DNA of 64,000 nt from Allorhizobium sonneratiae. GTDB taxonomy: Bacteria; Pseudomonadota; Alphaproteobacteria; Rhizobiales; Rhizobiaceae. The stretch is from positions 310,001 to 374,000 of the forward strand of contig NZ_JAMKOJ010000001.1 of the NCBI RefSeq assembly GCF_023700755.1. Reading direction: 5' to 3'. Of this stretch, positions 49,896 to 63,855 are shown piece by piece (position 1 is the first letter of the stretch; the number at the start of each line of letters is the position of its first letter). Both the position numbers and the translations under genes were made by a program. The notes beneath the pieces were generated by a model. The model saw only the letters and a list, made by a program, of their open reading frames with translations, was not told the DNA's origin and ran no database searches.

Positions 49896-50816
49896 TCACC
49901 CCTCGTGTAGAACTGCCGCAGCCTTGACCGCTGCTGACGCCCTGTTTTCCACCCCGAGTTTCACATAGATCTGTTCCAGATGTTTGTTCACCGTGCGGGC
50001 TGAGAGGCCGAGAATCTCGGCGATGTCGCGGTTGGCCTTGCCGCGGGCGATCCACAGTAGCACTTCCGCCTCGCGATTGGTCAGGTTGAAGGCATGGCGC
50101 AGCGCCTCGTCCTCACGCCGTGTGCTGGCGCTCATCAGGCGGAAGAGGATTTCGTCCGTGCCCATAGCGCCGAGATAGGTGATCTGCAGGCTGGGGGCGG
50201 TTTCGGGAAAGCTGAAAACAGCGCCATGGGTCATGCCTTGTTCGGCTTTGGCCGCCATCCAGCCGGAAATGGCGTGGGTGAGGCTTTCCGGTCCGTTTTC
50301 GGCGCCAAGCGTGTTCATCACCAGTCGGCTGGCCTGCGGCGTGGACCAGAGCAGGCTGCCATCAGCTCTGAGCGCCATCAAATGGCGACCTGCCGCGTCC
50401 AGCGCCACGCGGGCACTTTGGGCGTTGCGGGCATTGGTGAGATGCACGCGGATTCGGGCGCGCAATTCGTCGAGATTGATCGGTTTGGTCAGATAATCGA
50501 CGCCACCCGCGCCCAGCGCATGGACCACATGTTCGGTTTCGGTCAGCCCGGTCATGAAGATCACCGGCACCTGCGTCACGCTGGCCTGTGTTTTCAACTG
50601 GCGGCAGGTGTCGAAACCGTCCATCTCCGGCATCACCGCATCAAGCAGGATGAGGTCGGGCGTGATGCGCTCGACAATGCCGAGGGCAGCCTTGCCCGAG
50701 GTGGCAACCAGCACCGCATAGCCGGATTGCTCCAGCGCATCGGTGAGAAAACCCAGCGTTTCCGGGCTGTCGTCGATGATCAGCAGCATGTCGCGCGGTT
50801 GCGCCAGTTCAGCCAT
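49896..50816 (-). CDS. LuxR-family response regulator partner of the NCS1-kinase
   Basis: 306 residues. The receiver is at residues 1-125, with acidic DD (LLIIDDSPETLGFLTDALEQ), phospho-acceptor ILLDAVMPEMDGFD and VDYLTKPINLDE. A middle PAS-like segment (AAGRHLMALRADGSLLWSTP) follows. The C-terminal LuxR helix-turn-helix is NLTNREAEVLLWIARGKANR with ILGLSARTVNKHLEQIYVKL. The gene overlaps the end of the upstream hybrid kinase by eight bases, so the two are a cognate pair. Its targets may include the urt operon or other nitrogen genes nearby; that is inference. Confidence 0.9.
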   Translation of the reverse strand: MAELAQPRDMLLIIDDSPETLGFLTDALEQSGYAVLVATSGKAALGIVERITPDLILLDAVMPEMDGFDTCRQLKTQASVTQVPVIFMTGLTETEHVVHALGAGGVDYLTKPINLDELRARIRVHLTNARNAQSARVALDAAGRHLMALRADGSLLWSTPQASRLVMNTLGAENGPESLTHAISGWMAAKAEQGMTHGAVFSFPETAPSLQITYLGAMGTDEILFRLMSASTRREDEALRHAFNLTNREAEVLLWIARGKANRDIAEILGLSARTVNKHLEQIYVKLGVENRASAAVKAAAVLHEG

Positions 50817-53800
50817 TGTCAGCCCTATCTCCCATGACGGTGTGCAGCTTTTGGATCAGCCCGGCCATATCGAAAGACTGGATATAAGGCCGCAGCATTT
50901 CGGTAAAGGCCAGATAGGCCGGGTCGCGGGCAAGTCCGGCAAGCTTGCTGTCGATGCCGCGAATATAGCCGATTTCCGCCAGCCCCTTGAGATCGGCAAG
51001 ATCGGCAGCGGGCGGTATGACAAGCCCAGGCGGGGCTGGAGGGGGAGGCGGCGCTTCGTCGGCATAGCGCCAGACGAGTTTCAGATGCCGGGCCAGCTTG
51101 TCGCGCAGCACCTTCACATCGACAGGCTTGGCAATGGCGTCGTTATGGCCGCTCGATCCCGGCTCGCGCACAGCACCGTCACCGAGATTGGCCGAGAGCA
51201 TCAGGATCGGTGCGCTCTGGCCGAGATTGCGCAGCCGCTCCACCAACTGCCAGCCATTCATCACCGGCATGGAAATGTCGACGAGGAAGAGGTCCGGTTC
51301 GACACCCTCAATCAGCGTCAGGCATTCCGGGCCGCTGGCCGCTGTCAGCACGATGAAGTCGAGGGGCGTGAGTGCTTCGCGCATCAGATCACGGTGATCC
51401 TCATTGTCATCCACCACGACAAGGGTGCGGCGCGGGCCGTCATAGCCGGCAATGCGCCGCTCCGGCGTTGGTGCGGTGCTGGGCCGGTCGACGGTAGAGA
51501 GCATCAGACGCACGCGAAACACCGTGCCCTTGCCCTTTTCGCTGGTGACGGCAATGTCGCCGCCGAGCGTATTGGTCAAAAGCCGGGTAATGGTCAGGCC
51601 GAGACCGAGGCCGGGTAGCGGGCGAATGCTGTCGGCCTCGCCGCGCTGGAACGGTTCGAAAATCCGGGTGAGATCCTTTTCGGCAATGCCGCGCCCTGTA
51701 TCGGCGATGGTGAAGCTTGCCACCTGGCTGCGATAGGTCAGGGTAAAGCTGACGGACCCCTCATCGGTGAATTTGACCGCGTTGGAGAGGATGTTGACCA
51801 ATATCTGTCTCAGTCGCCGCTCATCGGTACGGACATAATGCGGCAGGTTTTCAGGACGTTCATGCAGAAAGCGCAACCCCTTGGCTTCGGCCTGCGGACG
51901 AATCATGGCGACGATCTGGTCGAGAAAATCGGCAAGCGCCAGTTCCGCCGGAAAGACCTGAAGCCGGCCCGCCTCGATCTTGGAAATGTCGAGCAGCCCG
52001 TCGATCAGGCCGGAGAGATGGTCGGCAGAGCGGCGAATGACCTTGATCGCCGCCTGGCGGGGAGCGGGAATGGTCTCGTCATGTTCGAGCAGTTGCGCAT
52101 AGCCGAGCACAGCATTGAGCGGCGTGCGCAATTCATGGGTCAGCCCGACGACATAGCGGCTCTTGGCCCGGTTGGCGGCTTCAGCGGCCTCCTTGGCGGC
52201 CTGAAGTGCAGCATCGGTCTTCTTGTGGGCGGCGATTTCCTTGAGCAGCAGGCTGTTCTGGCGGGAGGATTCCTCTTCCGCCACCACCCGGCTGTCATGG
52301 GCCAGCACATAGAACCAGGCGGCAATGCAGGCGGTGATGGAAAAGACGAAGAAAACGATCAGGATCGCGCCATTCACCGCCGTTGAGGTTTCAGGCTTCA
52401 CGGCAGCGACCTGATGGGCAATCAGCCCGAGAACAAGGCCGATCAGCGAGACGGCGGCAAGGCTGGTCAGGCCGTAGCGGCCAAGGCGGCTTGCCAGCGC
52501 ATCGGTCAGCCGATCCGGCAGGAGGTGCCGTGCCACGGTGGCGACCTGACTGTTGAGCGCCGCATGCGGTTTACACATGTCGTGGCAGCGGCTGTCCAGC
52601 GAGCAGCAGAGCGAGCAGATCGGCGCGGCATAGGCCGGGCACCAGGCCATGTCTTCCGGCTCGAACGGATGTTCGCAGATCGAGCAGGTGATGGCGTTCA
52701 GATTTTTCCAGCTGTGGCGCGGCTTGCGGGCCAGATAATAGCGGCCTTTTGTGGCGGCGGCGAGGGCAGGGGCTATGACGAAGGCCGAAAGCGTGACGAA
52801 GGTGGAGAGTGCCGTGAGGCTTGCGCCGAAAAGCCCCGCATGGGCGGCAATCGCCAGACCAGAGGATAAAACCAGCGTGCCGCAACCGACCGGATTGACG
52901 TCGTAGAGATGAGCGCGCTTGAACTCAATGCCCGGCGGCGACAGGCCAAGGCGTTTGTTGATGAAAAGATCGGCGGAGATGGTGCAGAGCCAGGCCATGG
53001 CGATGATGGAGAAGATGCCGAGCGTTTCCTCTAGCAGCCGGTAGATACCGAGCTCCATCAAAAGCAATGCGATGGCGACATTGAACACCAGCCAAACCAC
53101 CCGGCCCGGATGGCTGTGGGTGAGGCGGGAAAAGAAATTCGACCAGGCCAGAGACCCGGCATAGGCATTCATCACATTGATCTTCAATTGCGAGACCATG
53201 ACGAAGGCCACCATCAGCACCAAGGGCATCACAGGGCCAGGCGCGATATAGCTGAAGGCGGTGAGATACATATGGGCGGGATCGGCGGCGCGCTCGATGG
53301 CCACGCCCTCGGAGAGGGTCAGCACGGCGAGAAAGGAACCGGCCAGAAGCTTCGGCACGCCGAGCGCCACCCAGCCGGAACCGGCGAGAAATACGGCAAG
53401 GCGGTGGCGCTTCTTCTGCGCGCCTTCCGGCGGCAGGAAGCGGAGAAAGTCAACCTGCTCGCCAATTTGCGGCATCAGCGCCAGAATGACGGCGCAGGCG
53501 CCGCCGAAATCGGCCAGCCGGAAGGCGGCAGTCTGGCCGGAAATGAGGCCGGGAAAGGCGCGCCAGAGGTCGAATTTCGACCAGTCGGTGAGCGCGATGA
53601 ACAGGAAAGGCGCAATGTTCAGCACGATCCAGACCGGCTGGGTCAGAAGCTGGAAGCGCGAGATCAGCCTGACCCCGTAGGTGACCAGCGGAATGACCAC
53701 CACGGCGGACACGATATAGCCGATCGCCGGAGGCAGGGAAAAGGCAAGCTCGAGCGCCCCGGTCATGATCGAGGCTTCGATGGCAAACAGCATGAAGGTG

Positions 53801-54174
53801 AAGCTGGCATAGATCAGCGAGGTCACGGTGGAGCCGATATAGCCAAAGCCCGCGCCGCGGGTGAGAAGATCGATATCCACGCCTTCGCGGATGGCGTAGC
53901 GGCTGATCGGCAGGCCGATCAACAACATCAGGATGGCAGCGGTTAAAATGGCGAAAAAGGCGTTGACCGTGCCATAGGAGAGCGTGATGGCGCCGCCGAT
54001 TGCCTCCAGCGCCAGAAAAGAGATCGCGCCAATCGCTGTTTGCGAAATCCGGCTGGAGGAAAAGCGCCGTGCGCTTTTGGCGGTAAAGCGCAGGGCATAA
54101 TCTTCCAGCGTCTGGTCGGCGACCCAGCGGTTATACTGGCGTCTTACGGGAATGATGCGTTGGCGTGCGGCCAT
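50809..54174 (-). CDS. NCS1 permease-hybrid histidine kinase fusion
   Basis: 1121-residue transporter-sensor. Residues about 30-480 are a complete NCS1 (purine-cytosine permease-type) module with about twelve helices (ISFLALEAIGGAITLSYGTV, LLTRGAGFGYIGSTVTSLIY). Residues about 495-540 are a Cys-rich cluster, ITCSICEHPFEPEDMAWC followed by ICSLCCSLDSRCHDMC, likely a zinc site. Two further helices, a coiled coil, a HisKA domain with H near 680 (LTHELRTPLNAVLGYAQLL), an HATPase domain (NILSNAVKFT, DTGRGIAEKDL, GLGLGLTI) and a receiver with its Asp near 966 (LFLVDISMPVMNG) follow. Its start is the ATG at 54174. It probably senses an imported nitrogenous compound and signals to the overlapping LuxR regulator. 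Confidence 0.88.
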   Translation of the reverse strand: MAARQRIIPVRRQYNRWVADQTLEDYALRFTAKSARRFSSSRISQTAIGAISFLALEAIGGAITLSYGTVNAFFAILTAAILMLLIGLPISRYAIREGVDIDLLTRGAGFGYIGSTVTSLIYASFTFMLFAIEASIMTGALELAFSLPPAIGYIVSAVVVIPLVTYGVRLISRFQLLTQPVWIVLNIAPFLFIALTDWSKFDLWRAFPGLISGQTAAFRLADFGGACAVILALMPQIGEQVDFLRFLPPEGAQKKRHRLAVFLAGSGWVALGVPKLLAGSFLAVLTLSEGVAIERAADPAHMYLTAFSYIAPGPVMPLVLMVAFVMVSQLKINVMNAYAGSLAWSNFFSRLTHSHPGRVVWLVFNVAIALLLMELGIYRLLEETLGIFSIIAMAWLCTISADLFINKRLGLSPPGIEFKRAHLYDVNPVGCGTLVLSSGLAIAAHAGLFGASLTALSTFVTLSAFVIAPALAAATKGRYYLARKPRHSWKNLNAITCSICEHPFEPEDMAWCPAYAAPICSLCCSLDSRCHDMCKPHAALNSQVATVARHLLPDRLTDALASRLGRYGLTSLAAVSLIGLVLGLIAHQVAAVKPETSTAVNGAILIVFFVFSITACIAAWFYVLAHDSRVVAEEESSRQNSLLLKEIAAHKKTDAALQAAKEAAEAANRAKSRYVVGLTHELRTPLNAVLGYAQLLEHDETIPAPRQAAIKVIRRSADHLSGLIDGLLDISKIEAGRLQVFPAELALADFLDQIVAMIRPQAEAKGLRFLHERPENLPHYVRTDERRLRQILVNILSNAVKFTDEGSVSFTLTYRSQVASFTIADTGRGIAEKDLTRIFEPFQRGEADSIRPLPGLGLGLTITRLLTNTLGGDIAVTSEKGKGTVFRVRLMLSTVDRPSTAPTPERRIAGYDGPRRTLVVVDDNEDHRDLMREALTPLDFIVLTAASGPECLTLIEGVEPDLFLVDISMPVMNGWQLVERLRNLGQSAPILMLSANLGDGAVREPGSSGHNDAIAKPVDVKVLRDKLARHLKLVWRYADEAPPPPPAPPGLVIPPAADLADLKGLAEIGYIRGIDSKLAGLARDPAYLAFTEMLRPYIQSFDMAGLIQKLHTVMGDRADNG

Positions 54175-54531: not shown

Positions 54532-55362
54532 ATGGATACGACAGGACTAGCAACGGCTCAGGCGCAGAACCAGGGACAGGATTTTGGTACGCAGGGCATC
54601 GCGCCGATGGATCGACCGAGCCGGATCACCCGGTTTTTCATGGGCATCGTCTCCTGGGCGGAGCGGCTGAATTTCAAATATGCCAAGCTTGGCAATCCGC
54701 CGGTCTATGACAATGCCACCTTTCCCTGGGTGGCAGAGGTGGAAAAGGCCTATCCGGCCATTCGCGCCGAGCTTGACACAATCCTGAAGCGCAAGGATGA
54801 GCTGCCAAGCTTTCAGGACATTTCCACCGATGTGAAGACCATCTCCAGCGACAACAACTGGAAGACCTTCTTCCTGCTCGGTTTCGGGGTGAAGTCCGAG
54901 GCCAATATCAAGGCCTGCCCGGAAACCTGGAAGGCCATGCAGAATATCCCGGGTCTGACCACGGTGATGTTCTCGATTTTTGAGCCGGGCAAGCATCTTC
55001 CGGCCCATCGCGGTCCTTATAACGGCGTGCTTCGCCTGCATCTCGGCATGATCGTGCCGGAGCCGCGTGAAAAGATCGCCATTCGCGTCAAGGACCAGAT
55101 CTGCCATTGGGACGAAGGCAAGGTGCTGATCTTCGACGATGCCTATGAGCATGAGGCCTGGAACCATTCCGACAAGACCCGCGTCGTTCTCTTCGTCGAT
55201 TTCGTCAAGCCGTTGAAGTTCCCGGCGCGGCTGGTCAACTGGTGCCTGATGAATCTGGCAATCTTCACGCCCTTCATTCGCGAGGGGCTGGACAACCATA
55301 ATGAGTGGGAAAAGAAGTTCTACGCCGAAGCGGAAAAGCTCAGAAACAGCAAGCCGGCCTGA
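54532..55362 (+). CDS. LpxO-like aspartyl/asparaginyl beta-hydroxylase-family protein
   Basis: 276 residues of the Fe(II)/2-oxoglutarate dioxygenase family that includes lipid A hydroxylase LpxO. Iron-ligand regions are LPAHRGPYNGVLRLHLGMIV and DDAYEHEAWNHSDKTRVVLF, each with a conserved His. A hydrophobic stretch near residues 228-246 and the membrane-tending N-terminus match LpxO, which 2-hydroxylates a lipid A acyl chain. The ATG at 54532 has AAAG. The lipid A role is inferred from family resemblance; peptide hydroxylation is an alternative. Confidence 0.82.
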   Translation: MDTTGLATAQAQNQGQDFGTQGIAPMDRPSRITRFFMGIVSWAERLNFKYAKLGNPPVYDNATFPWVAEVEKAYPAIRAELDTILKRKDELPSFQDISTDVKTISSDNNWKTFFLLGFGVKSEANIKACPETWKAMQNIPGLTTVMFSIFEPGKHLPAHRGPYNGVLRLHLGMIVPEPREKIAIRVKDQICHWDEGKVLIFDDAYEHEAWNHSDKTRVVLFVDFVKPLKFPARLVNWCLMNLAIFTPFIREGLDNHNEWEKKFYAEAEKLRNSKPA

Positions 55363-55495: not shown

Positions 55496-58090
55496 TCAGG
55501 CCTTTTCGTTCAGGGCGGTTTTGATCGCGCCGATCAGGCTTGACGGATCATAGGGCTTGTTGACGATGGCGATCGCGGAAAAATGCGGTGGAATGGTATT
55601 GCGCTCGGCATAGCCGGTGGCAAAGACGAAGGGAATGCCACGCCGGTAAAGCTCTTCGGCCACCGGCAGCGATGTGTGATCGCCGAGATTGATGTCGACA
55701 ATGGCCACTGTCGGTCGGCGAGGTCCAAGCTTGTGCAGCGCTTCCGCCGCCGAGCGGGCGGTGATGACATCGCTAAAACCGGCATCGTTGAGCATCATTT
55801 CGGCATCCATGGCAATCAGCATCTGATCTTCGACGATGAGCACCGTTCCCGACACATCGAGCGGACGTGCCTGCATTTGCGGTGGGCGGGGAACGGGCTT
55901 CTGGCTTTGAAGGTGCTTTTCCATCGGCTTGCCGGAGATGAACCGGCCAGGAATGAGCAATTCCGCCGTCAGGCCATCGGCATCGTAGTGCAGGCTGCTC
56001 TTTCCAGAGAGATCGTAGGGAATGCTGCGCTCGATCAGCGCCGAACCGAAGCCGCGTCTGCCGGGCGGTTTGACGGGTGGTCCACCGCGTTCGGCCCAGA
56101 TGATTGCGCAATCATTCGTTTCTGTCCACGCCCATGTCACTGAAAGCTGTCCACCGGGCCGTGACAGGGCGCCATATTTGGCGGCATTGGTGGACAGTTC
56201 ATGGATAACGAGCGCGGTCACTGCATAGGCCCGGCTTTCCAGCACCATCAAAGGTCCGTCCAGCGTGATCATGGTGTTTTCGCTGCGATAGGGGCTGAGT
56301 TCGGCCTCCAGCAGATCGGTGATCAGGCCGGTGCCGCTGCCGCGAATGACCTGATCATGGGCAAAGGCCAGCGCCTGTATGCGGCCCTTGAGCGTGGTGA
56401 CGTAATCGACGATGCTGTCGCTGGGAGCGGACGGCACGCCGACCAGAGACTTGATCACCGAGAGGATGTTCTTCACCCGATGGTTGAGTTCCTCATTCAG
56501 CAGGCGCTGACGCAGATCGGCCTTGGCCCGTTCTTCCTGCATCAGTTCGTTGTGACGCAGGATGATTTCCACGGTCACGGCGCGCATGGCTTCGGCAATG
56601 TCGAGATCGCTGTCGCTCCAGGCCTCGGCTTCGCAGCGCACGGTCTCCTTCCAGATGGAAAAACTCTTGCGCGGGGTCAGCCGGTCGCCCAGAGGCCCGG
56701 TTTCATAGGATTTTTCCGGATTTCCTGCCCAGTTGAGCGTTTGCAGCCGCTCCTTGCGGAACACCAGAAGATAGTCATTGGGGATTTGCGACAAAGGAAT
56801 GGCCATGACGCCGGAGACCGCCTCGACATAGGCTGTTGCCGGGGCAAAATCCCGGGAAAGCTGGTGTGTTGACCAGATGCGTCCATCCGCAACCGAGGGG
56901 ATAAAGCGCAAAAGCGGCTCGACTGCCTCATCGGGCGGGACGGAACCGGAGGCAGTCCACACGCCATTCATCCACAGGCCCAGTCCCTCACAGGCAAAGA
57001 GCTGGCGAAATTCCGGCAGGGAGGCGGTAAACAGCTCTTCGAGATTGGCATAATGGGCAGATTGATGCAGAAACCGGTCCAGTGAGCGGCGCGCGTCATT
57101 GGCCAGTTCCAGCTTGCGTTTCTGCTTCAGCGCCAGAAGATGAAGCGAAAAGAATTCGCCAAACAGTTCGGCGGCCATGCGCTCGGTCAGTGACAGGGTT
57201 TTCGGCTCATAATGATGGCAGGCGATCAGACCCCAGAGCGCATCATTGTTGAGCACGGAAATCGACATCGAGGCGGCAACGCCCATATTGCGCAGATATT
57301 CCAGATGAATGGGCGAGACGCTGCGCAGATGGGCAAAGGAGAGATCGATCGGCTCTTTGGCCTCATCGTCTACGGGAACAAGCGGTACACGCGCGCCACG
57401 CGCATCGGAAATCACCCGGATCGGATTTTGCAGATAAAGCCTGCGGGCCTGTTCGGGAATGTCGCTTGCGGGAAAGTACTGGCCGAGAAAGCTTTCGAGA
57501 TCGCCGCGCCTGGCTTCCGCCACCACCTTGCCTGCACCGTCATGCTCCAGCCGGTAGATCATCACCCGGTCATAGCCGAGAACCGCACGCACCAGTTTCG
57601 CTGTACTGGCGATCAGATGGTCGACGTCATTGATGTCCTTGATGCGGCCGATCATCTCGCGGGCCATCAGCAGAGGCTGCAAGCTGCCTTTCGAGGGCTC
57701 AAGTTCGACGATGACGACACCGTTATGGCTGTGCACGGCAATATCGCAAACCTCACCCGAGGCAAGCGTGGTATGGGTAACCACGCCGGACCGGGTGGGG
57801 TTGCTCGATAAAGACAGCGCGTTGCGCAGATCATGGGTGACGGCGGCGCCAAGAAGATCGGCCAGCGACTTTCCCGCAAGAGTTTGGCCCGCAAGAGTTT
57901 GGCCAGCAAGAGTGTGACCAGCAAGCCCGTCTTCGATCCCGAGAAAGGCTGCTGCATTGGCCGAATGACGCAGAATGGTCGTCATGGCGGCATCGGTGAC
58001 CAGAAGACAGCCATGCGGTTGGATGCTTCCGGGAATATGGATCGGCTCGCGGTCGCAATTGCTCAGGTCAACAGGCTGGGGTGGAGACAT
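55496..58090 (-). CDS. bphP: Bacteriophytochrome, PAS-GAF-PHY-HWE kinase-receiver (Agp2-type)
   Basis: 864-residue red/far-red photoreceptor kinase. The biliverdin-binding Cys is C12 (LSNCDREPIHIPGSIQPHG). GAF has the PASDIP motif (QYFPASDIPEQARRLYLQN) and SPIHLEYLRNMGV. The PHY tongue carries PRKSFSIWKETV. The kinase is of the HWE class, with phospho-His in LLNEELNHRVKNILSVIKSL. A C-terminal receiver (TVAIVDINLGDHTSLPVAEE) completes the Agrobacterium Agp2 layout. Residues 56-78 hold a tandem Leu-Ala-Gly repeat absent from the usual PAS domain. Start ATG at 58090 overlaps bphO by 23 bases, so pigment synthase and photoreceptor are made together. Confidence 0.93.
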   Translation of the reverse strand: MSPPQPVDLSNCDREPIHIPGSIQPHGCLLVTDAAMTTILRHSANAAAFLGIEDGLAGHTLAGQTLAGQTLAGKSLADLLGAAVTHDLRNALSLSSNPTRSGVVTHTTLASGEVCDIAVHSHNGVVIVELEPSKGSLQPLLMAREMIGRIKDINDVDHLIASTAKLVRAVLGYDRVMIYRLEHDGAGKVVAEARRGDLESFLGQYFPASDIPEQARRLYLQNPIRVISDARGARVPLVPVDDEAKEPIDLSFAHLRSVSPIHLEYLRNMGVAASMSISVLNNDALWGLIACHHYEPKTLSLTERMAAELFGEFFSLHLLALKQKRKLELANDARRSLDRFLHQSAHYANLEELFTASLPEFRQLFACEGLGLWMNGVWTASGSVPPDEAVEPLLRFIPSVADGRIWSTHQLSRDFAPATAYVEAVSGVMAIPLSQIPNDYLLVFRKERLQTLNWAGNPEKSYETGPLGDRLTPRKSFSIWKETVRCEAEAWSDSDLDIAEAMRAVTVEIILRHNELMQEERAKADLRQRLLNEELNHRVKNILSVIKSLVGVPSAPSDSIVDYVTTLKGRIQALAFAHDQVIRGSGTGLITDLLEAELSPYRSENTMITLDGPLMVLESRAYAVTALVIHELSTNAAKYGALSRPGGQLSVTWAWTETNDCAIIWAERGGPPVKPPGRRGFGSALIERSIPYDLSGKSSLHYDADGLTAELLIPGRFISGKPMEKHLQSQKPVPRPPQMQARPLDVSGTVLIVEDQMLIAMDAEMMLNDAGFSDVITARSAAEALHKLGPRRPTVAIVDINLGDHTSLPVAEELYRRGIPFVFATGYAERNTIPPHFSAIAIVNKPYDPSSLIGAIKTALNEKA
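57876..57920. repeat. 15-base tandem repeat within bphP
   Basis: Three units of 15 bases (GCAAGAGTTTGGCCC, GCAAGAGTTTGGCCA, GCAAGAGTGTGACCA) plus a partial fourth. They encode LAG(H/Q)T pentapeptides in the PAS domain, a copy-number expansion that preserves the reading frame. Confidence 0.9.
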
Positions 58091-58622
58091 TCGATGCGCT
58101 TTCAAAAGCTGCTTGGGCCAGGGCGAAGGTTGCCTTTGCCGAGGCGATCATAGGCCGTTCATCGATCTCCTCCGCCTGTTCGAGGAGGGCTCCCAACCGA
58201 TGCCAATTGGAGAGACTGTCAGTTTGGCGATGAAGATGGGCAGCGCCGGTTTCGGCTGTCAGGCCAAGGGTTGCGGCGCGGCGCACGAGCAATCTTGCCC
58301 CAAGGCAGGCACCCTCCAGCACATAGCCCATGCCAAGCCAGCCTGCGCGGCTGACCGGTGCTGCCATCACAGGAAACGCGCCAATCTCGGCGGACAGCGC
58401 TACAAGATCGCGCCCGAGATCCTGACCGAGTAAGGTGGGGCGCCAGTCCTGCAGCCGGTTCACGCGCCACAGGCTTTCCGCGCTAAGGCGAAACCGCGCC
58501 ATGCCGATGACATAGCGCTGATAGCTTTCGCGACAATCAAAATTCCCGACGAGCCTGTCCAGCTCGGAATGAATGGTGGCTGTCTGTTCTCTCAAACGCC
58601 ACCTGCGTGGTGAATGGTTCAT
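58068..58622 (-). CDS. bphO: Biliverdin-producing heme oxygenase
   Basis: 184-residue bacterial heme oxygenase that converts heme to biliverdin, the chromophore of the adjoining phytochrome. The proximal heme-ligand His sits in LREQTATIHSELDRLVGNFD, near residue 18, and GWLGMGYVLEGACLGARLLV is the distal helix with its Gly motif. The ATG at 58622 follows AGGAC. It precedes and overlaps bphP in the same direction, the usual bphO-bphP arrangement. Confidence 0.88.
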   Translation of the reverse strand: MNHSPRRWRLREQTATIHSELDRLVGNFDCRESYQRYVIGMARFRLSAESLWRVNRLQDWRPTLLGQDLGRDLVALSAEIGAFPVMAAPVSRAGWLGMGYVLEGACLGARLLVRRAATLGLTAETGAAHLHRQTDSLSNWHRLGALLEQAEEIDERPMIASAKATFALAQAAFESASNVSTPAC

Positions 58623-58797
58623 CAAGGTCCTGTTCGGATATCCCCATTCCCCGAGACACGGAGCCCATCCGTCTCTCACCTACCCGAAACAATACATAGA
58701 ATTAGGTTTTGAAATTTGCAATCATCAAAAACGTTCTAATTTTATGATGTTGCCATACGCGCAAGCGCTTAGCGCGGCGCTCTTGATGATGTCTCTC

Positions 58798-58813
58798 TAC
58801 GTCAATTGACGTA
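58798..58813. promoter_or_regulatory. 16-base perfect palindrome upstream of urtA
   Basis: TACGTCAATTGACGTA is fully palindromic, ending 74 bases before the urtA start. It is a strong operator candidate for urea-operon control. I see no clear sigma-54 promoter in the 265-base gap (58623-58887). Confidence 0.6.
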
Positions 58814-58887
58814 TACGATTTCGCGGCGCAGCACGCCATAGTCCCCTCCATAGCTGACTTGTACCATAAAAGAGGGGTTCGGATCAC

Positions 58888-60177
58888 ATGAGATTGAAAA
58901 CGCAGCTCGTTTCGGCGCTGATGGGCGCCATGCTGTCCACCACGGCTTTCCACGGGGCCTTTGCCGCCGACGATACGATCAAGGTCGGCATTCTGCATTC
59001 GCTCTCCGGCACCATGGCGATTTCGGAAACCACGCTGAAAGACGCCATGCTGATGCTGATCGACGAGCAGAACAAGAAGGGCGGCCTGCTCGGCAAGAAG
59101 CTCGAGCCGGTCGTGGTCGATCCGGCCTCCAACTGGCCGCTTTTTGCCGAAAAGGCCCGCGAACTGATCTCCAAGGACAAGGTCGCCGCGGTTTTCGGCT
59201 GCTGGACCTCGGTATCGCGCAAGTCGGTGCTGCCGGTGTTCAAGGAGCTTGACTCCATCCTGTTCTATCCGGTGCAGTTCGAAGGTGAGGAAAGCGAGCG
59301 CAACGTCTTCTATACCGGGGCGGCCCCCAACCAGCAGGCCATCCCCGCTGTCGATTATCTGATGAAGAATGAAGGTGTTGAGCGTTTCGTGCTGGAAGGC
59401 ACCGATTACGTCTATCCGCGCACGACCAACAAGATCCTCGAAGCCTATCTGAAGTCCAAGGGTGTCAAGGCTGAGGACATCATGGTCAATTACACGCCTT
59501 TCGGCTTCTCCGACTGGCAGACGGAAGTGGCGAAGATCAAGAAATTCGGCTCTTCCGGCAAGAAGACCGCCGTCATCTCCACCATCAATGGCGATGCCAA
59601 CGTGCCCTTCTACAAGGAGCTCGGCAATCAGGGCGTCAAGGCCGAGGATATTCCGGTCATCGCCTTCTCCGTTGGCGAAGAGGAACTGGCCGGTATCGAT
59701 ACCAAGCCGCTGGTCGGCCATCTTGCCGCCTGGAACTATTTCGAAAGCGTTGATACACCCGCCAATGCCGAATTCATCAAGGAATGGCACGCCTTCACCA
59801 AGAGCGACAAGCGTGTGACCAACGACCCGATGGAAGCTGCCTATATCGGCTTCAACATGTGGGTGAAGGCGGTTGAAAAGGCCGGCACCACCGATCAGGA
59901 CAAGGTGATCAACGCGCTGGTCGGCGTGACCGTGCCGAACCTCACCGGCGGTTATGCCACCATGATGCCGAACCATTACATCACCAAGCCGGTGCTGATC
60001 GGCGAAATCCAGGAAAACGGCCAGTTCGACGTCGTTTCCCAGACGCCGGAAGTGGTGGGCGATGCCTGGTCCGATTATCTGCCGGACAGCAAGGATCTGA
60101 TCGCCGATTGGCGCATGCCGATGAATTGCGGCAACTTCAACGTCAAGACCGGCAAGTGCGGCGGCAAGGGTAACTGA
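58888..60177 (+). CDS. urtA: Urea ABC transporter substrate-binding protein
   Basis: 429-residue periplasmic urea-binding protein of the branched-chain-like (FmdD/UrtA) family. The signal peptide ends HGAFAADD. KVGILHSLSGTMAISETTLK, GLLGKKLEPVVVDPASNWPL, VFGCWTSVSRKSVLPVFKEL and LFYPVQFEGEESERNVFYTG are urea-type signature blocks. The ATG at 58888 has AGAGGGG at a rather long distance. It is the first gene of urtABCDE. Confidence 0.95.
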   Translation: MRLKTQLVSALMGAMLSTTAFHGAFAADDTIKVGILHSLSGTMAISETTLKDAMLMLIDEQNKKGGLLGKKLEPVVVDPASNWPLFAEKARELISKDKVAAVFGCWTSVSRKSVLPVFKELDSILFYPVQFEGEESERNVFYTGAAPNQQAIPAVDYLMKNEGVERFVLEGTDYVYPRTTNKILEAYLKSKGVKAEDIMVNYTPFGFSDWQTEVAKIKKFGSSGKKTAVISTINGDANVPFYKELGNQGVKAEDIPVIAFSVGEEELAGIDTKPLVGHLAAWNYFESVDTPANAEFIKEWHAFTKSDKRVTNDPMEAAYIGFNMWVKAVEKAGTTDQDKVINALVGVTVPNLTGGYATMMPNHYITKPVLIGEIQENGQFDVVSQTPEVVGDAWSDYLPDSKDLIADWRMPMNCGNFNVKTGKCGGKGN

Positions 60178-60223: not shown

Positions 60224-60262
60224 CTGTCTTTTTCGTTGCCCCTGAAGAGGGGGGAGACAAGC

Positions 60263-61951
60263 ATGTTTCGATCCCGCAGCCCATGGCTTTGCCGTTTCGC
60301 CGCCGACCTTTGCCTGGCCCTTGGTCTGGCCTTTGCGGCGGGTTGTCTGGTGATGCCCGCTCAAACGCGGGCAGCCGACAGCTCGGCGCAGCAGCCAGTT
60401 CAATCACCAGCCGAATCGCCAGCCCAGTTGATTGCCGCTCTGGCCAAAGCCAGTTTTCCCGAAGCCGCAAAGATCGTCGATCAGCTTGGCCAGACCGGGG
60501 ATATCCGGCTGGTACCGGTGCTTGAGGCGCTCGGCAATGGCGATCTTTATTCCCGCAAGAGCGATGGCGCGGTGTTCATCGTCAAATCCAAGGGCGCAAA
60601 ACTGACGCTGCTCGATCCCATCACCGGCAAGCCTGCCGGGGAAGAGGCGAAGGCGACGATGGAGCGCATTCGCATCAACAACAGTGTGCGCCGCGCCATC
60701 CGCTCAGCTGAAGGCGGGCTGACACTGAAAAGCCCGAACCGCGATGTGCGCCGCGAAGCGGTGGCCGCGCTGTTGAAATCACCGTCCGAAGATAATCTCG
60801 AGCTGATCGACAAGGCGCTTGCGACGGAGAAGGATGGCGATATCCGCCATCTGCTCGACGAAGCGCAGGCCGTGTCGATCCTTGCCTCGAACCAGGGGCT
60901 GGAGAGCAAACGGGCCGCGGTGAAAACCATCCGCGCCATGGGCGGACAGGAGGCGCTGTCCATTCTGTTGACGGCCAGCTACAGCGCCGATCCGGCGTTG
61001 AAGGGCGAGATCCAGTCTGCCATCGCCGCCATCCAGCATGAGCTGGCGCTCTGGAGCATGGCGCAGAATATTGCCTATGGCCTGTCGCTCGGCTCGGTGC
61101 TGCTTCTGGCGGCCATCGGCCTTGCCATCACCTTCGGGGTGATGGGCATCATCAACATGGCGCATGGCGAAATGGTCATGCTCGGGGCCTATTCCACCTT
61201 CGTCGTGCAGCAGGTGATCCGTCACCATGCGCCCTTTCTGTTCGAATGGTCGCTGGCGATTGCGCTGCCGGTTGCTTTCCTGGTCACGGCGGCGGTCGGG
61301 CTGGTGATCGAGCGCGGCGTCATCCGCCATCTTTATGGCCGCCCGCTGGAAACGCTGCTTGCCACATTTGGCATTTCGCTGATCCTGCAACAGGCGGTGC
61401 GCTCGCTGTTCGGCCCGACCAATCAGGATGTCGCCAATCCGGTGTGGATGTCGGGCGCATTTCAGGCAGGCGGGCTGACCATCACCTGGAACCGGCTGTG
61501 GATTCTCATCTTTTCGCTCACCGTCTTCTTTGCCCTTTTGACACTGTTGAAGCGCTCTTCCTTCGGCTTGCAGATGCGGGCGGTGACGCAGAACCGGCGC
61601 ATGGCCGCTTCCATGGGCATTCGCACGCCCTTCGTCGATGCCTTCACCTTTGCGCTTGGCTCCGGCATTGCCGGCATGGCCGGGGTGGCGCTCTCGCAGA
61701 TCGATAATGTCTCGCCCAATCTTGGCCAGAGCTACATTATCGACAGTTTCATGGTGGTGGTGTTCGGCGGTGTCGGCAATCTCTGGGGTACGCTGGTCGG
61801 TGCCTTTTCGCTCGGCATCGTCAATAAGCTGCTGGAGCCCTATGCGGGGGCGGTCATGGGCAAGATCCTCGTTCTCGTGCTGATCGTGCTGTTCATCCAG
61901 AAGCGGCCGCGCGGTCTCTTCGCACTCAAGGGAAGGGCGGTGGACGCATGA
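60263..61951 (+). CDS. urtB: Urea ABC transporter permease UrtB
   Basis: 562 residues. A signal-like N-terminus and about 240 residues of helical repeat-like periplasmic domain (REAVAALLKSPSEDNLELID) precede the LivH-type permease, which begins near residue 265 (AQNIAYGLSLGSVLLLAAIG) and contains GIINMAHGEMVMLGAYS. The extension is normal for proteobacterial UrtB. The ATG at 60263 follows GGGGGAG; an in-frame TTG at 60236 is unlikely. It overlaps urtC by four bases. Confidence 0.94.
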   Translation: MFRSRSPWLCRFAADLCLALGLAFAAGCLVMPAQTRAADSSAQQPVQSPAESPAQLIAALAKASFPEAAKIVDQLGQTGDIRLVPVLEALGNGDLYSRKSDGAVFIVKSKGAKLTLLDPITGKPAGEEAKATMERIRINNSVRRAIRSAEGGLTLKSPNRDVRREAVAALLKSPSEDNLELIDKALATEKDGDIRHLLDEAQAVSILASNQGLESKRAAVKTIRAMGGQEALSILLTASYSADPALKGEIQSAIAAIQHELALWSMAQNIAYGLSLGSVLLLAAIGLAITFGVMGIINMAHGEMVMLGAYSTFVVQQVIRHHAPFLFEWSLAIALPVAFLVTAAVGLVIERGVIRHLYGRPLETLLATFGISLILQQAVRSLFGPTNQDVANPVWMSGAFQAGGLTITWNRLWILIFSLTVFFALLTLLKRSSFGLQMRAVTQNRRMAASMGIRTPFVDAFTFALGSGIAGMAGVALSQIDNVSPNLGQSYIIDSFMVVVFGGVGNLWGTLVGAFSLGIVNKLLEPYAGAVMGKILVLVLIVLFIQKRPRGLFALKGRAVDA

Positions 61952-63096
61952 TCTCCTCCTGGTTACTCCGTGGTTTCGACAGAAAAACGCTGATCACGCT
62001 CGCCCTTCTGGCCTTGGCGGCGGTGGCGGTGCCGGTCATGAACCTTGTCGTGCCGGCGGGCAGCGCCCTGCATATCCCCAATTACATGGTGGCGCTTCTC
62101 GGCAAATATCTCTGCTATGCCATGCTGGCGCTGGCGCTTGATCTGGTCTGGGGCTTTTGCGGCATTCTCTCGCTTGGCCATGGTGCATTTTTTGCGCTCG
62201 GCGGCTATGCCATGGGCATGTATCTGATGCGCCAGATCGGCCCGCGCGGCGTCTATGGCGATCCGATCCTGCCGGATTTCATGGTGTTTCTCAACTGGAA
62301 GCAATTGCCGTGGTTCTGGCATGGCTTCGACATGTTCTGGTTCGCCGCGCTGATGGCGCTTGCCGTGCCGGGTGTGCTGGCCTTCATCTTCGGCTGGTTT
62401 GCCTTCCGTTCGCGTGTTAACGGCGTTTATCTGTCGATCATCACCCAGGCGCTGACCTATGCGCTGATGCTGGCCTTTTTCCGCAATGACATGGGCTTTG
62501 GCGGCAATAACGGGCTGACCGATTTCAAGGATATTCTCGGCTTCGACATTCAGGCCGATGCGACGCGGGTGGTGCTGTTTTCCATCACCGCCGTCATGCT
62601 GGGGCTGATGCTGGTGATTGCCTCGGCGATCATCCGTTCAAAATACGGCAAGGTGCTGATCGGCGTGCGTGACGCCGAAAGCCGCACCCGCTTTCTCGGC
62701 TACCGGGTGGAAAACATGAAGCTCTTCGCCTTCACCGTTTCGGCGATGATGGCGGGTGTGGCAGGCGCGCTCTATGTGCCGCTGATCGGCATCATCAATC
62801 CCGGCGAATTTGCCCCGGCCAATTCCATCGAAGTGGTGATCTGGACGGCGGTGGGTGGGCGCGCCACGCTGATCGGCCCGATTCTTGGCGCGGTGCTGGT
62901 CAATGGCGGCAAGACGGTGTTCACCGGGGCCTTTCCCGATCAATGGCTGTTTGCGCTGGGCGGTCTCTTCGTCGCCGTCACTCTGTTTTTGCCCAAGGGC
63001 ATTGTCGGCACGATCGGGCAAAAACTCGGCGAGCGAAAAGAGCGTCAGGCGCTGAGACGCAATGGCGCGGACAACACCATTCAGGCGGCGGAGTAA
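61948..63096 (+). CDS. urtC: Urea ABC transporter permease UrtC
   Basis: 382-residue LivM-type permease. It has GKYLCYAMLALALDLVWGFC with GILSLGHGAFFALGGYAMGM, and WTAVGGRATLIGPILGAVLV near the end. It overlaps urtB (ATGA) and lies three bases before urtD. Confidence 0.94.
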   Translation: MISSWLLRGFDRKTLITLALLALAAVAVPVMNLVVPAGSALHIPNYMVALLGKYLCYAMLALALDLVWGFCGILSLGHGAFFALGGYAMGMYLMRQIGPRGVYGDPILPDFMVFLNWKQLPWFWHGFDMFWFAALMALAVPGVLAFIFGWFAFRSRVNGVYLSIITQALTYALMLAFFRNDMGFGGNNGLTDFKDILGFDIQADATRVVLFSITAVMLGLMLVIASAIIRSKYGKVLIGVRDAESRTRFLGYRVENMKLFAFTVSAMMAGVAGALYVPLIGIINPGEFAPANSIEVVIWTAVGGRATLIGPILGAVLVNGGKTVFTGAFPDQWLFALGGLFVAVTLFLPKGIVGTIGQKLGERKERQALRRNGADNTIQAAE

Positions 63097-63099
63097 GAG

Positions 63100-63855
63100 A
63101 TGAGCGAGAAAACCACCAGCAGTCTCTTGTATCTGAGCGGCGTAACCGTCTCCTTCGACGGGTTCAGGGCGCTGAATTCGCTGTCCTTCATCGTCGAGCC
63201 GGGCGAGCTTCGCGCCATTATCGGCCCGAATGGCGCCGGCAAGACGACGATGATGGACATCATCACCGGCAAGACCCGGCCGGATGCAGGCGAGGTGTTC
63301 TTCGACGGCGGCAAGATCGACCTGACGAAGAAGGACGAGGCGGAGATTGCTCAGCTCGGCATTGGCCGCAAGTTTCAAAAGCCGACCGTGTTTGAAAGCC
63401 ATACGGTCTGGGACAATCTGGAACTCGCCCTGAACCGGCCGCGCGGGGTGTTCTCCACGCTGTTCTACCGGCTGACGGCAGAAGACCGGGAGCGGATCGA
63501 GACCATTCTGGAGACGGTGCGGCTGAGTGCGAGAAAAGACGATCTTGCCGCCAGTCTCTCCCACGGGCAGAAGCAATGGCTGGAAATCGGCATGTTGCTG
63601 GCGCAGGAGCCGAAACTGCTGCTGGTCGATGAGCCGGTGGCGGGCATGACCGATGCGGAAACCACTGAGACGGCAGTGCTTTTGAAAGAGATTGCAAAGA
63701 CCCGTTCCGTCGTGGTGGTGGAACACGATATGGGCTTCATCCGCGATCTCGGGGTTAAAGTCACCTGTCTGGCGGAAGGATCGGTGCTGGCGGAAGGTTC
63801 GATCGACTTCGTCTCTTCCGATCCGAAGGTCATTGAAAACTATCTGGGGCGCTGA
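63100..63855 (+). CDS. urtD: Urea ABC transporter ATPase UrtD
   Basis: 251-residue ATPase. Walker A is GPNGAGKTT, LGIGRKFQKPTVFESHTVWD is typical of UrtD, the signature is SLSHGQKQWLEIGMLLAQEP, and Walker B is LLLVDEPVAGMTD. It starts three bases after urtC and ends two bases before urtE. Confidence 0.95.
   Translation: MSEKTTSSLLYLSGVTVSFDGFRALNSLSFIVEPGELRAIIGPNGAGKTTMMDIITGKTRPDAGEVFFDGGKIDLTKKDEAEIAQLGIGRKFQKPTVFESHTVWDNLELALNRPRGVFSTLFYRLTAEDRERIETILETVRLSARKDDLAASLSHGQKQWLEIGMLLAQEPKLLLVDEPVAGMTDAETTETAVLLKEIAKTRSVVVVEHDMGFIRDLGVKVTCLAEGSVLAEGSIDFVSSDPKVIENYLGR

Follow-up and report, generated by a model that had tools for sequence, protein, structure and literature searches.

A few transporter-kinases are known. 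As far as the accessible parts of the reports tell, the SLC5/STAC kinases CbrA, CrbS and RpuS consist of a full transporter, a cytoplasmic coupling segment and the histidine kinase of a nutrient system (PMC13022988, PMC5715377, PMC9100948), the ammonium sensor kinase Ks-Amt5 is a nitrogen-source transporter turned sensor and fused to a kinase (PMC5764959), and in EupR/Csal869 the proposed partner of a NarL/FixJ regulator is a hybrid kinase with a transporter-like sensor (PMC2964678). For Ectopseudomonas guguanensis G3, the available part of one report gives a urtABCDE operon next to genes for LuxR-type regulators, an fmdA with a locus number neighboring the urt operon and, in a figure legend, a hybrid kinase (PMC13296017); uptake of formamide by an fmd-linked urt system is suggested in an excerpt of another (PMC13209695). 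Among the matches listed in the open-access literature we found no description of a kinase of the NCS1 type.

The locus described here lies in a stretch of 64,000 nucleotides of Allorhizobium sonneratiae, referred to as the window, and its features are collected in Table 1. Our preferred explanation, to which we give a probability of roughly 0.7 on comparisons of sequences and gene order, is that kinase and regulator form a transporter-derived two-component system which would sense urea (and, in many of its relatives, formamide and other short-chain amides) and would activate urtABCDE.

Table 1. Features of the locus, in window positions.
Feature	Position	Strand	Basis
NarL/FixJ-type response regulator, receiver (D59) + LuxR-type HTH	49896..50816	-	Pfam; alignment of 46
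NCS1-like transporter/hybrid histidine kinase fusion, 1121 aa	50809..54174	-	ORF, Pfam, alignment, profile comparison
Receiver domain (D966)	51094..51420	-	Pfam; D966 conservation
HisKA (H680) + HATPase_c	51499..52164	-	Pfam; H680, N794, N798 invariant
Two further helices, residues 568-586 + 603-623	52306..52473	-	hydropathy
Eight-cysteine segment, residues 497-534	52573..52686	-	cysteines invariant in 55/55; predicted cytoplasmic
NCS1-like permease module, ~residues 47-470	52765..54036	-	hydropathy, hhalign to NCS1-like permeases
Candidate operator TACGTCAATTGACGTA upstream of urtA	58798..58813	.	comparative genomics; perfect palindrome copy
-10-like hexamer CATAGT, 31 bases after palindrome centre	58837..58842	+	read from sequence
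urtA, proposed target	58888..60177	+	NCBIfam TIGR03407, 554 bits, cut-off 493
Three ORFs after urtA, read as urtB, urtC, urtD	60236..63855	+	ORF list; names inferred from gene order

Architecture of the kinase and relatives of its permease half

The sequence-only reading had joined a permease, a cysteine cluster, two helices, a histidine kinase and a receiver in one frame, and the ORF, Pfam and hydropathy bear this out: a single frame on the minus strand runs from an ATG at 54174 to a stop at 50809. The domain search of the full protein which that reading had proposed was only partly successful, since HisKA (residues 671-736), HATPase_c (783-892) and Response_reg (919-1027) were found and no Pfam NCS1 model was matched. 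All three domains possess their active-site residues, which makes the protein a hybrid histidine kinase; D966 is present in 96% of 55 sequences, the remainder being gaps. Residues 47-470 form nine hydrophobic stretches in a hydropathy profile averaged over 51 relatives, three of which could each hold two helices, and this is consistent with twelve helices in the permease half. They are followed by a polar stretch rich in Lys and Arg and then by the two further helices. The AlphaFold2 model of the sensor, built from an input alignment of near relatives only, reached a pLDDT of 46. The kinase was carried by all of the 23 same-genus genomes searched (two copies are cut at contig ends), therefore the fusion is not a product of chance. 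Its neighbor, which possesses a receiver with the phospho-acceptor D59 and a LuxR-type HTH, starts at 50816 and so overlaps the end of the kinase gene by 8 bp, as had been read. Two shorter relatives of the kinase without the receiver (L165, 8163-10847, 894 aa; L166, 7999-10656, 885 aa) adjoin other regulator-like genes and fmdA.

The relation of the permease half to NCS1 permeases comes from profile-profile comparison and from intermediates, not from Pfam: PF02133 was matched neither by the window protein, nor by any of the 51 sensor regions, nor anywhere in the host genome. When the 51 sensors were compared by hhalign with six distant, free NCS1-like permeases, which had themselves been found by similarity to the sensor, the E-value was 4.1e-38 over 440 columns, and with one of these permeases singly (L160) it was 1.7e-32. 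Five of the six were scanned with PF02133; L160 and L142 pass, L161 stays below the cut-off and two have no match. By these comparisons the permease half appears related to NCS1 permeases over its whole length, and the earlier claim of an NCS1-like and not an SSS-like transporter holds, with E 4e-38 against E 0.48 for a single SSS transporter of the host. This last value, together with the absence of PF00474 from the Pfam scan of the window protein at E up to 1, led us to reject an SSS (SLC5) identity. The same scan, the only comparison made for STAC, gave no STAC match. Look-ups of solved structures with the sensor, the sensor profile, L160 and L142 returned no NCS1 entry, and a scan of viral contigs found no relatives.

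An alignment of five sensors with eight closer free permeases has 95 identical columns, and 90 of these precede the cysteine segment, which indicates that the sensor retains the conserved permease core. A loss of transport and ligand residues, which would have counted against the sequence-only reading, was not seen at the level of these conserved columns. The same 90 columns speak for a variant of the preferred explanation, namely that the sensor is a true transceptor which also imports urea or amides and signals by flux and not by occupancy. It is in favor of this variant that the transporter domain of CbrA can mediate histidine uptake, too little for growth, according to the available part of the report (PMC13022988), but Ks-Amt5 has, in the accessible text, lost transport on becoming a sensor (PMC5764959) and genes for an ABC importer of the presumed solute lie nearby; we consider a transceptor possible, with the odds against it. 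In a tree of 29 sensors, eight free permeases and three outgroup rows the permeases formed one clade (98). Because of the long outgroup branches the root is unsure, and the tree does not tell whether a transporter became a sensor or the reverse.

The eight-cysteine segment and the free permeases

The cysteine cluster is present where it had been noticed, with eight cysteines and not about nine, at residues 497, 500, 512, 520, 523, 524, 530 and 534 (C-x2-C-x11-C-x7-C-x2-CC-x5-C-x3-C). All eight, together with H680, are invariant in the 55 aligned sequences, the window included. The positive-inside rule, applied to the Lys/Arg-rich stretch and the layout of the helices, places the segment in the cytoplasm. 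Its profile gave 57 strong matches (at least 82 bits) and eight weak ones (at most 21 bits) in 398 genomes of the phylum, and all of the strong matches coincide in position, as compared by eye, with the 57 places where the kinase itself was strong. Free permeases found outside this sample likewise carry versions of the segment at their ends. All eight cysteines are kept in Methylovirgula, five in Streptomyces, a CxxC...CxxC arrangement in Klebsiella, Acinetobacter and Moraxella, and the first cysteine alone in Tsukamurella and two Arthrobacter, so that between three and seven cysteines are missing from seven of the eight free permeases. The segment is therefore a tail of this clade of permeases, left intact in the kinases, and not a foreign insert; its position between transporter and kinase stands as first read, and the idea of a simple insertion does not.

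Many of the top Foldseek matches of the segment's model (pLDDT 63) were RING, LIM, PHD and FYVE domains, the best at E 0.27 and none below E 0.001, so that this weak model gives a hint of such a fold. The segment may well bind zinc. Cysteines that are invariant in all 55 sensors and mostly lost in the free permeases would also suit a metal or redox sensor, in which the segment is the main input and the permease half a membrane scaffold, and it is known that urease needs nickel. However, the permease core is strongly conserved as well, and no urease genes are found near 41 of the 54 kinases surveyed below, where formamidase is commoner, and we find such an input unlikely.

Close free permeases, 39-48% identical to the window sensor, were found on plasmid records of Streptomyces, Tsukamurella, Arthrobacter, Klebsiella, Acinetobacter, Moraxella and Methylovirgula. 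When eight of them were scanned, only the Klebsiella protein L235 (39% identical to the window sensor) passed PF02133, with 37.7 bits at a cut-off of 23.5, and the other seven had no match. Neighborhoods were covered for 14 of the best 18 free-permease records, one place each. Nine of these loci lie beside genes for urease (L235, L236, L241, L245, L246), formamidase (L232, L237) or aliphatic amidase (L238, L240); no such genes were found within 5 kb in L239, L242, L243 and L244 or within 9 kb in L231. The number of independent cases is smaller, since one protein accession is shared by L236 and L241, and L235 and L245 represent a single locus from two strains of Klebsiella. The Methylovirgula free permease directly follows a kinase/regulator pair of the same family, near an amidase, and the distant permease L160 lies beside a nitrilase-type amidase and a UrtA-like protein, both below their family cut-offs.

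The Klebsiella and Acinetobacter genes that lie directly beside urease genes (L235, 4941-6548; L236, 4944-6551) are annotated as cytosine or allantoin permease, and by their position they are candidate urea permeases. On the Moraxella osloensis plasmid an AAC(3)-I acetyltransferase gene (L237, 7717-8193) and IS elements are found near the fmdA-permease pair. We would put at even odds the proposal that urea and short-chain amides are handled by the whole clade of NCS1-like proteins now labeled allantoin/cytosine permease or hypothetical. If it is true, the free members are importers that have gone unrecognised in gene clusters for urease, formamidase and amidase, and the kinase-fused members are dedicated urea/amide membrane receptors with a family-specific cysteine-rich coupling domain.

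Gene neighborhoods and the candidate operator

In a scan of named genomes the best 80 of 529 encoding stretches were kept; to judge by their titles nearly all of them are from Rhizobiaceae, with Allorhizobium and Agrobacterium vitis nearest. The sensor was strong in 25 of 385 genomes of the class sample, which also held one interrupted copy and one distant permease, and in 52 of 398 genomes of the phylum sample (E < 1e-150), our own genome being counted in both. From these two samples 60 stretches were taken, some of them shortened by contig ends, 54 with a kinase and six with distant permeases. In the survey of nitrogen genes around homologues that the sequence-only reading had called for, 51 of the 54 kinase loci, across Proteobacteria, lie close to genes for a urea/amide importer, a formamidase, an amidase or a urease, and three (L135-L137) have no importer, amide or urease genes within about 9 kb. 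Within this distance of the 54 kinases we counted a UrtA-like binding protein in 41 loci, FmdA in 31, an FmdB-type zinc ribbon in 21, urease genes in 13 and an aliphatic amidase in 10. From the clusters of binding proteins, FmdA, zinc ribbons, amidases and long UrtB a single member apiece was checked against family models; other ABC components and urease subunits were named by eye, and for UreC, UreG and UreD representatives were subsequently found to match urease genes with annotation. Two congeners have a second kinase, of about 54% identity, next to an fmd operon. When the sensor tree was labeled by urease/urt against fmd neighbors, six changes were needed against a mean of 17.7 for shuffled labels, and none of 500 shuffles was as low, five unlabeled rows being left out and near relatives inflating the contrast; by this count the type of neighbor follows the sensor tree.

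A fmd-operon binding protein (L199, 7033-8331) passes the UrtA model with 540 bits, and the binding proteins of fmd operons are only about 37-42% identical to the window urtA product, therefore "urea transporter" labels in such operons may denote amide importers. Klebsiella plasmid records that match the sensor number 342 (e.g. L233), and at least two of them are the free permease; the Klebsiella matches among those listed (24 rows) are full-length at 47-48%. In one Klebsiella plasmid kinase record the kinase is divergent from urtABCDE-annotated genes, which are followed by a formamidase-annotated gene.

The described substrates of NCS1 permeases are of the nucleobase, hydantoin and allantoin class, and free relatives of the sensor are annotated as allantoin or cytosine permeases. 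The sensor could accordingly keep such ligands, its link to urt being one of general nitrogen control. The neighbors of both kinases and free permeases are nevertheless formamidase, amidase, urease and urea/amide importer genes, and no cluster for nucleobase or allantoin catabolism was noticed among them in incidental reading, made without a targeted search. Mainly because of the free-permease neighbors we prefer urea and short-chain amides, and a retained nucleobase-type ligand seems to us improbable. The nitrogenous ligand of the sequence-only reading is thus supported, its list (nucleobase, allantoin, hydantoin or urea) being narrowed by the neighborhoods to urea and short-chain amides. In this host urea is the likeliest ligand, since a urease is encoded about 20 kb past the window and no FmdA match was found in the genome (94% complete). 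The urea importer that had been placed 4.7 kb from the kinase is confirmed by the TIGR03407 match of urtA, which starts at 58888, the kinase starting at 54174; urtE would lie past the window end. The binding-protein gene, where present, is divergent from and adjacent to the kinase in 35 of 41 loci. Its presence near the kinase in 41 of the 54 loci would also agree with a kinase that reads loaded periplasmic UrtA or the activity of the importer and not the free solute, but hydropathy averaged over 51 relatives predicts no large periplasmic domain in the kinase, and seven of the 13 urease-linked loci have no binding protein in the stretch examined, so we give this little credence.

Three further genes lie between the kinase and urtA. 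OlsC, an ornithine-lipid hydroxylase, is at 54532-55362 (NCBIfam NF052565, 529 bits), a phytochrome-type protein with HWE kinase and receiver at 55496-58105 (Pfam), and just upstream of the latter a 203-aa ORF at 58068-58679, which by its position looks like a heme oxygenase. The phytochrome-type gene and the 203-aa ORF occur as a pair between kinase and urtA in many Rhizobiaceae loci.

A candidate operator for the regulator was found upstream of urtA by comparative genomics. The 79 upstreams compared were that of the window and those of 78 of the 80 kept loci (best 80 of 529), two loci having given no urtA match. TACG-N8-CGTA is present in all 79, where 0.27 are expected from first-order shuffles, and three control palindromes were found in 0, 0 and 3 of them. 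Its first half is usually TACGTCA and the palindrome typically TACGTCA-N2-TGACGTA, with the centre mostly 101-104 bp before the urtA ATG, and in 67 of the 79 upstreams [TG]ATAGT follows, starting exactly 31 bp past the centre. NarL-type regulators are known to recognize 7-2-7 sites, and half-sites with TAC/GTA ends and a spacing of two bases fit this arrangement. The strict site is carried by 22 of 35 divergent kinase/binding-protein junctions, with 150 bp added on either side (0.08 expected), and the junction DNA of these loci, 20 kb in all, has 25 sites against nine in 632 kb elsewhere. The remaining 13 loci are without the strict palindrome, their best matches having one to three mismatches, and near the second kinase copies L227 and L228 no palindrome was found even at one mismatch. 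Two palindromes each in the kinase/importer region of L170, L172 and L176, and one more at fmdA in L170 and L172, suggest several operators at these loci.

We also searched 30 further genomes, 18 of which have a close UrtA. The strict site is present in both kinase-bearing urtA genomes and in none of the 16 kinase-lacking ones, from 11 genera, where one looser match was seen. On pSymB of Sinorhizobium meliloti T073 the palindrome lies about 100 bp before urtA, and the kinase gene is found there too, at a distance from urtA of less than 10 kb. The host genome holds ten strict palindromes against 152 for a reversed control pattern, and the sole perfect copy is the one at urtA. A wider host regulon is not supported, since no obvious nitrogen gene was seen at the three other sites, out of six taken, that were inspected. 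A near-perfect palindrome, TACGTCATCTGACGTA, lies at C12:152932 of the host (L218, ~2433) between genes without an evident role in nitrogen metabolism.

Proposed signaling route and comparison with known systems

In the preferred explanation, a urea/amide-sensing system that activates urtABCDE, the NCS1-like module would bind the ligand and a conformational change would pass through the cytoplasmic eight-cysteine segment and helices 13-14 to the kinase. H680 would then be phosphorylated and, as the conserved residues suggest, the phosphoryl group would be passed to D966 of the fused receiver and from there, perhaps by way of an HPt protein encoded separately, to the regulator's D59. The regulator would bind TACGTCA-N2-TGACGTA, a site put forward by comparative genomics, and would activate urtABCDE from a centre near -43. 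In other Proteobacteria, to judge from the neighborhoods, the same pair probably controls amide importer/formamidase or urease genes.

The SLC5/STAC kinases have an SSS transporter, and the window sensor showed no similarity to the one SSS protein used for comparison; on this ground the kinase is placed outside that family. Their STAC is, in the portion of the report available, a four-helix bundle (PMC13022988), whereas the coupling segment in the window is cysteine-rich and followed by two helices, and the proposed urea/amide class of ligand would set the window sensor further apart. The Amt module of Ks-Amt5 joins the kinase directly, no linker domain being present, and a fused receiver is not mentioned in the accessible part of the paper (PMC5764959). 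EupR/Csal869 differs in its SSF and PAS sensor, in its connection to ectoine uptake and in a kinase that lies three genes from the regulator, as given in the excerpt (PMC2964678). The hybrid kinase of E. guguanensis G3 may, we infer, belong to the same family as ours, but the available text of that report holds annotation alone and no sensor analysis, operator or mechanism (PMC13296017).

With this locus the small number of known transporter-kinases would gain a further class of transporter. It proposes a specific urea/amide membrane sensor in nitrogen-cycling soil bacteria, with a defined candidate operator, as well as a clade of urea/amide permeases, perhaps overlooked until now, within urease operons. 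With the NCS1 permeases (PF02133/TIGR00800) the sensor appears to share a relation over the whole length, and one free permease of its own clade passes PF02133; it differs from them in its fusion to a kinase, and the sensors fall below Pfam detection. Sensor and free permease, at about 40% identity, form a natural pair in which the step from transporter to receptor could be studied.
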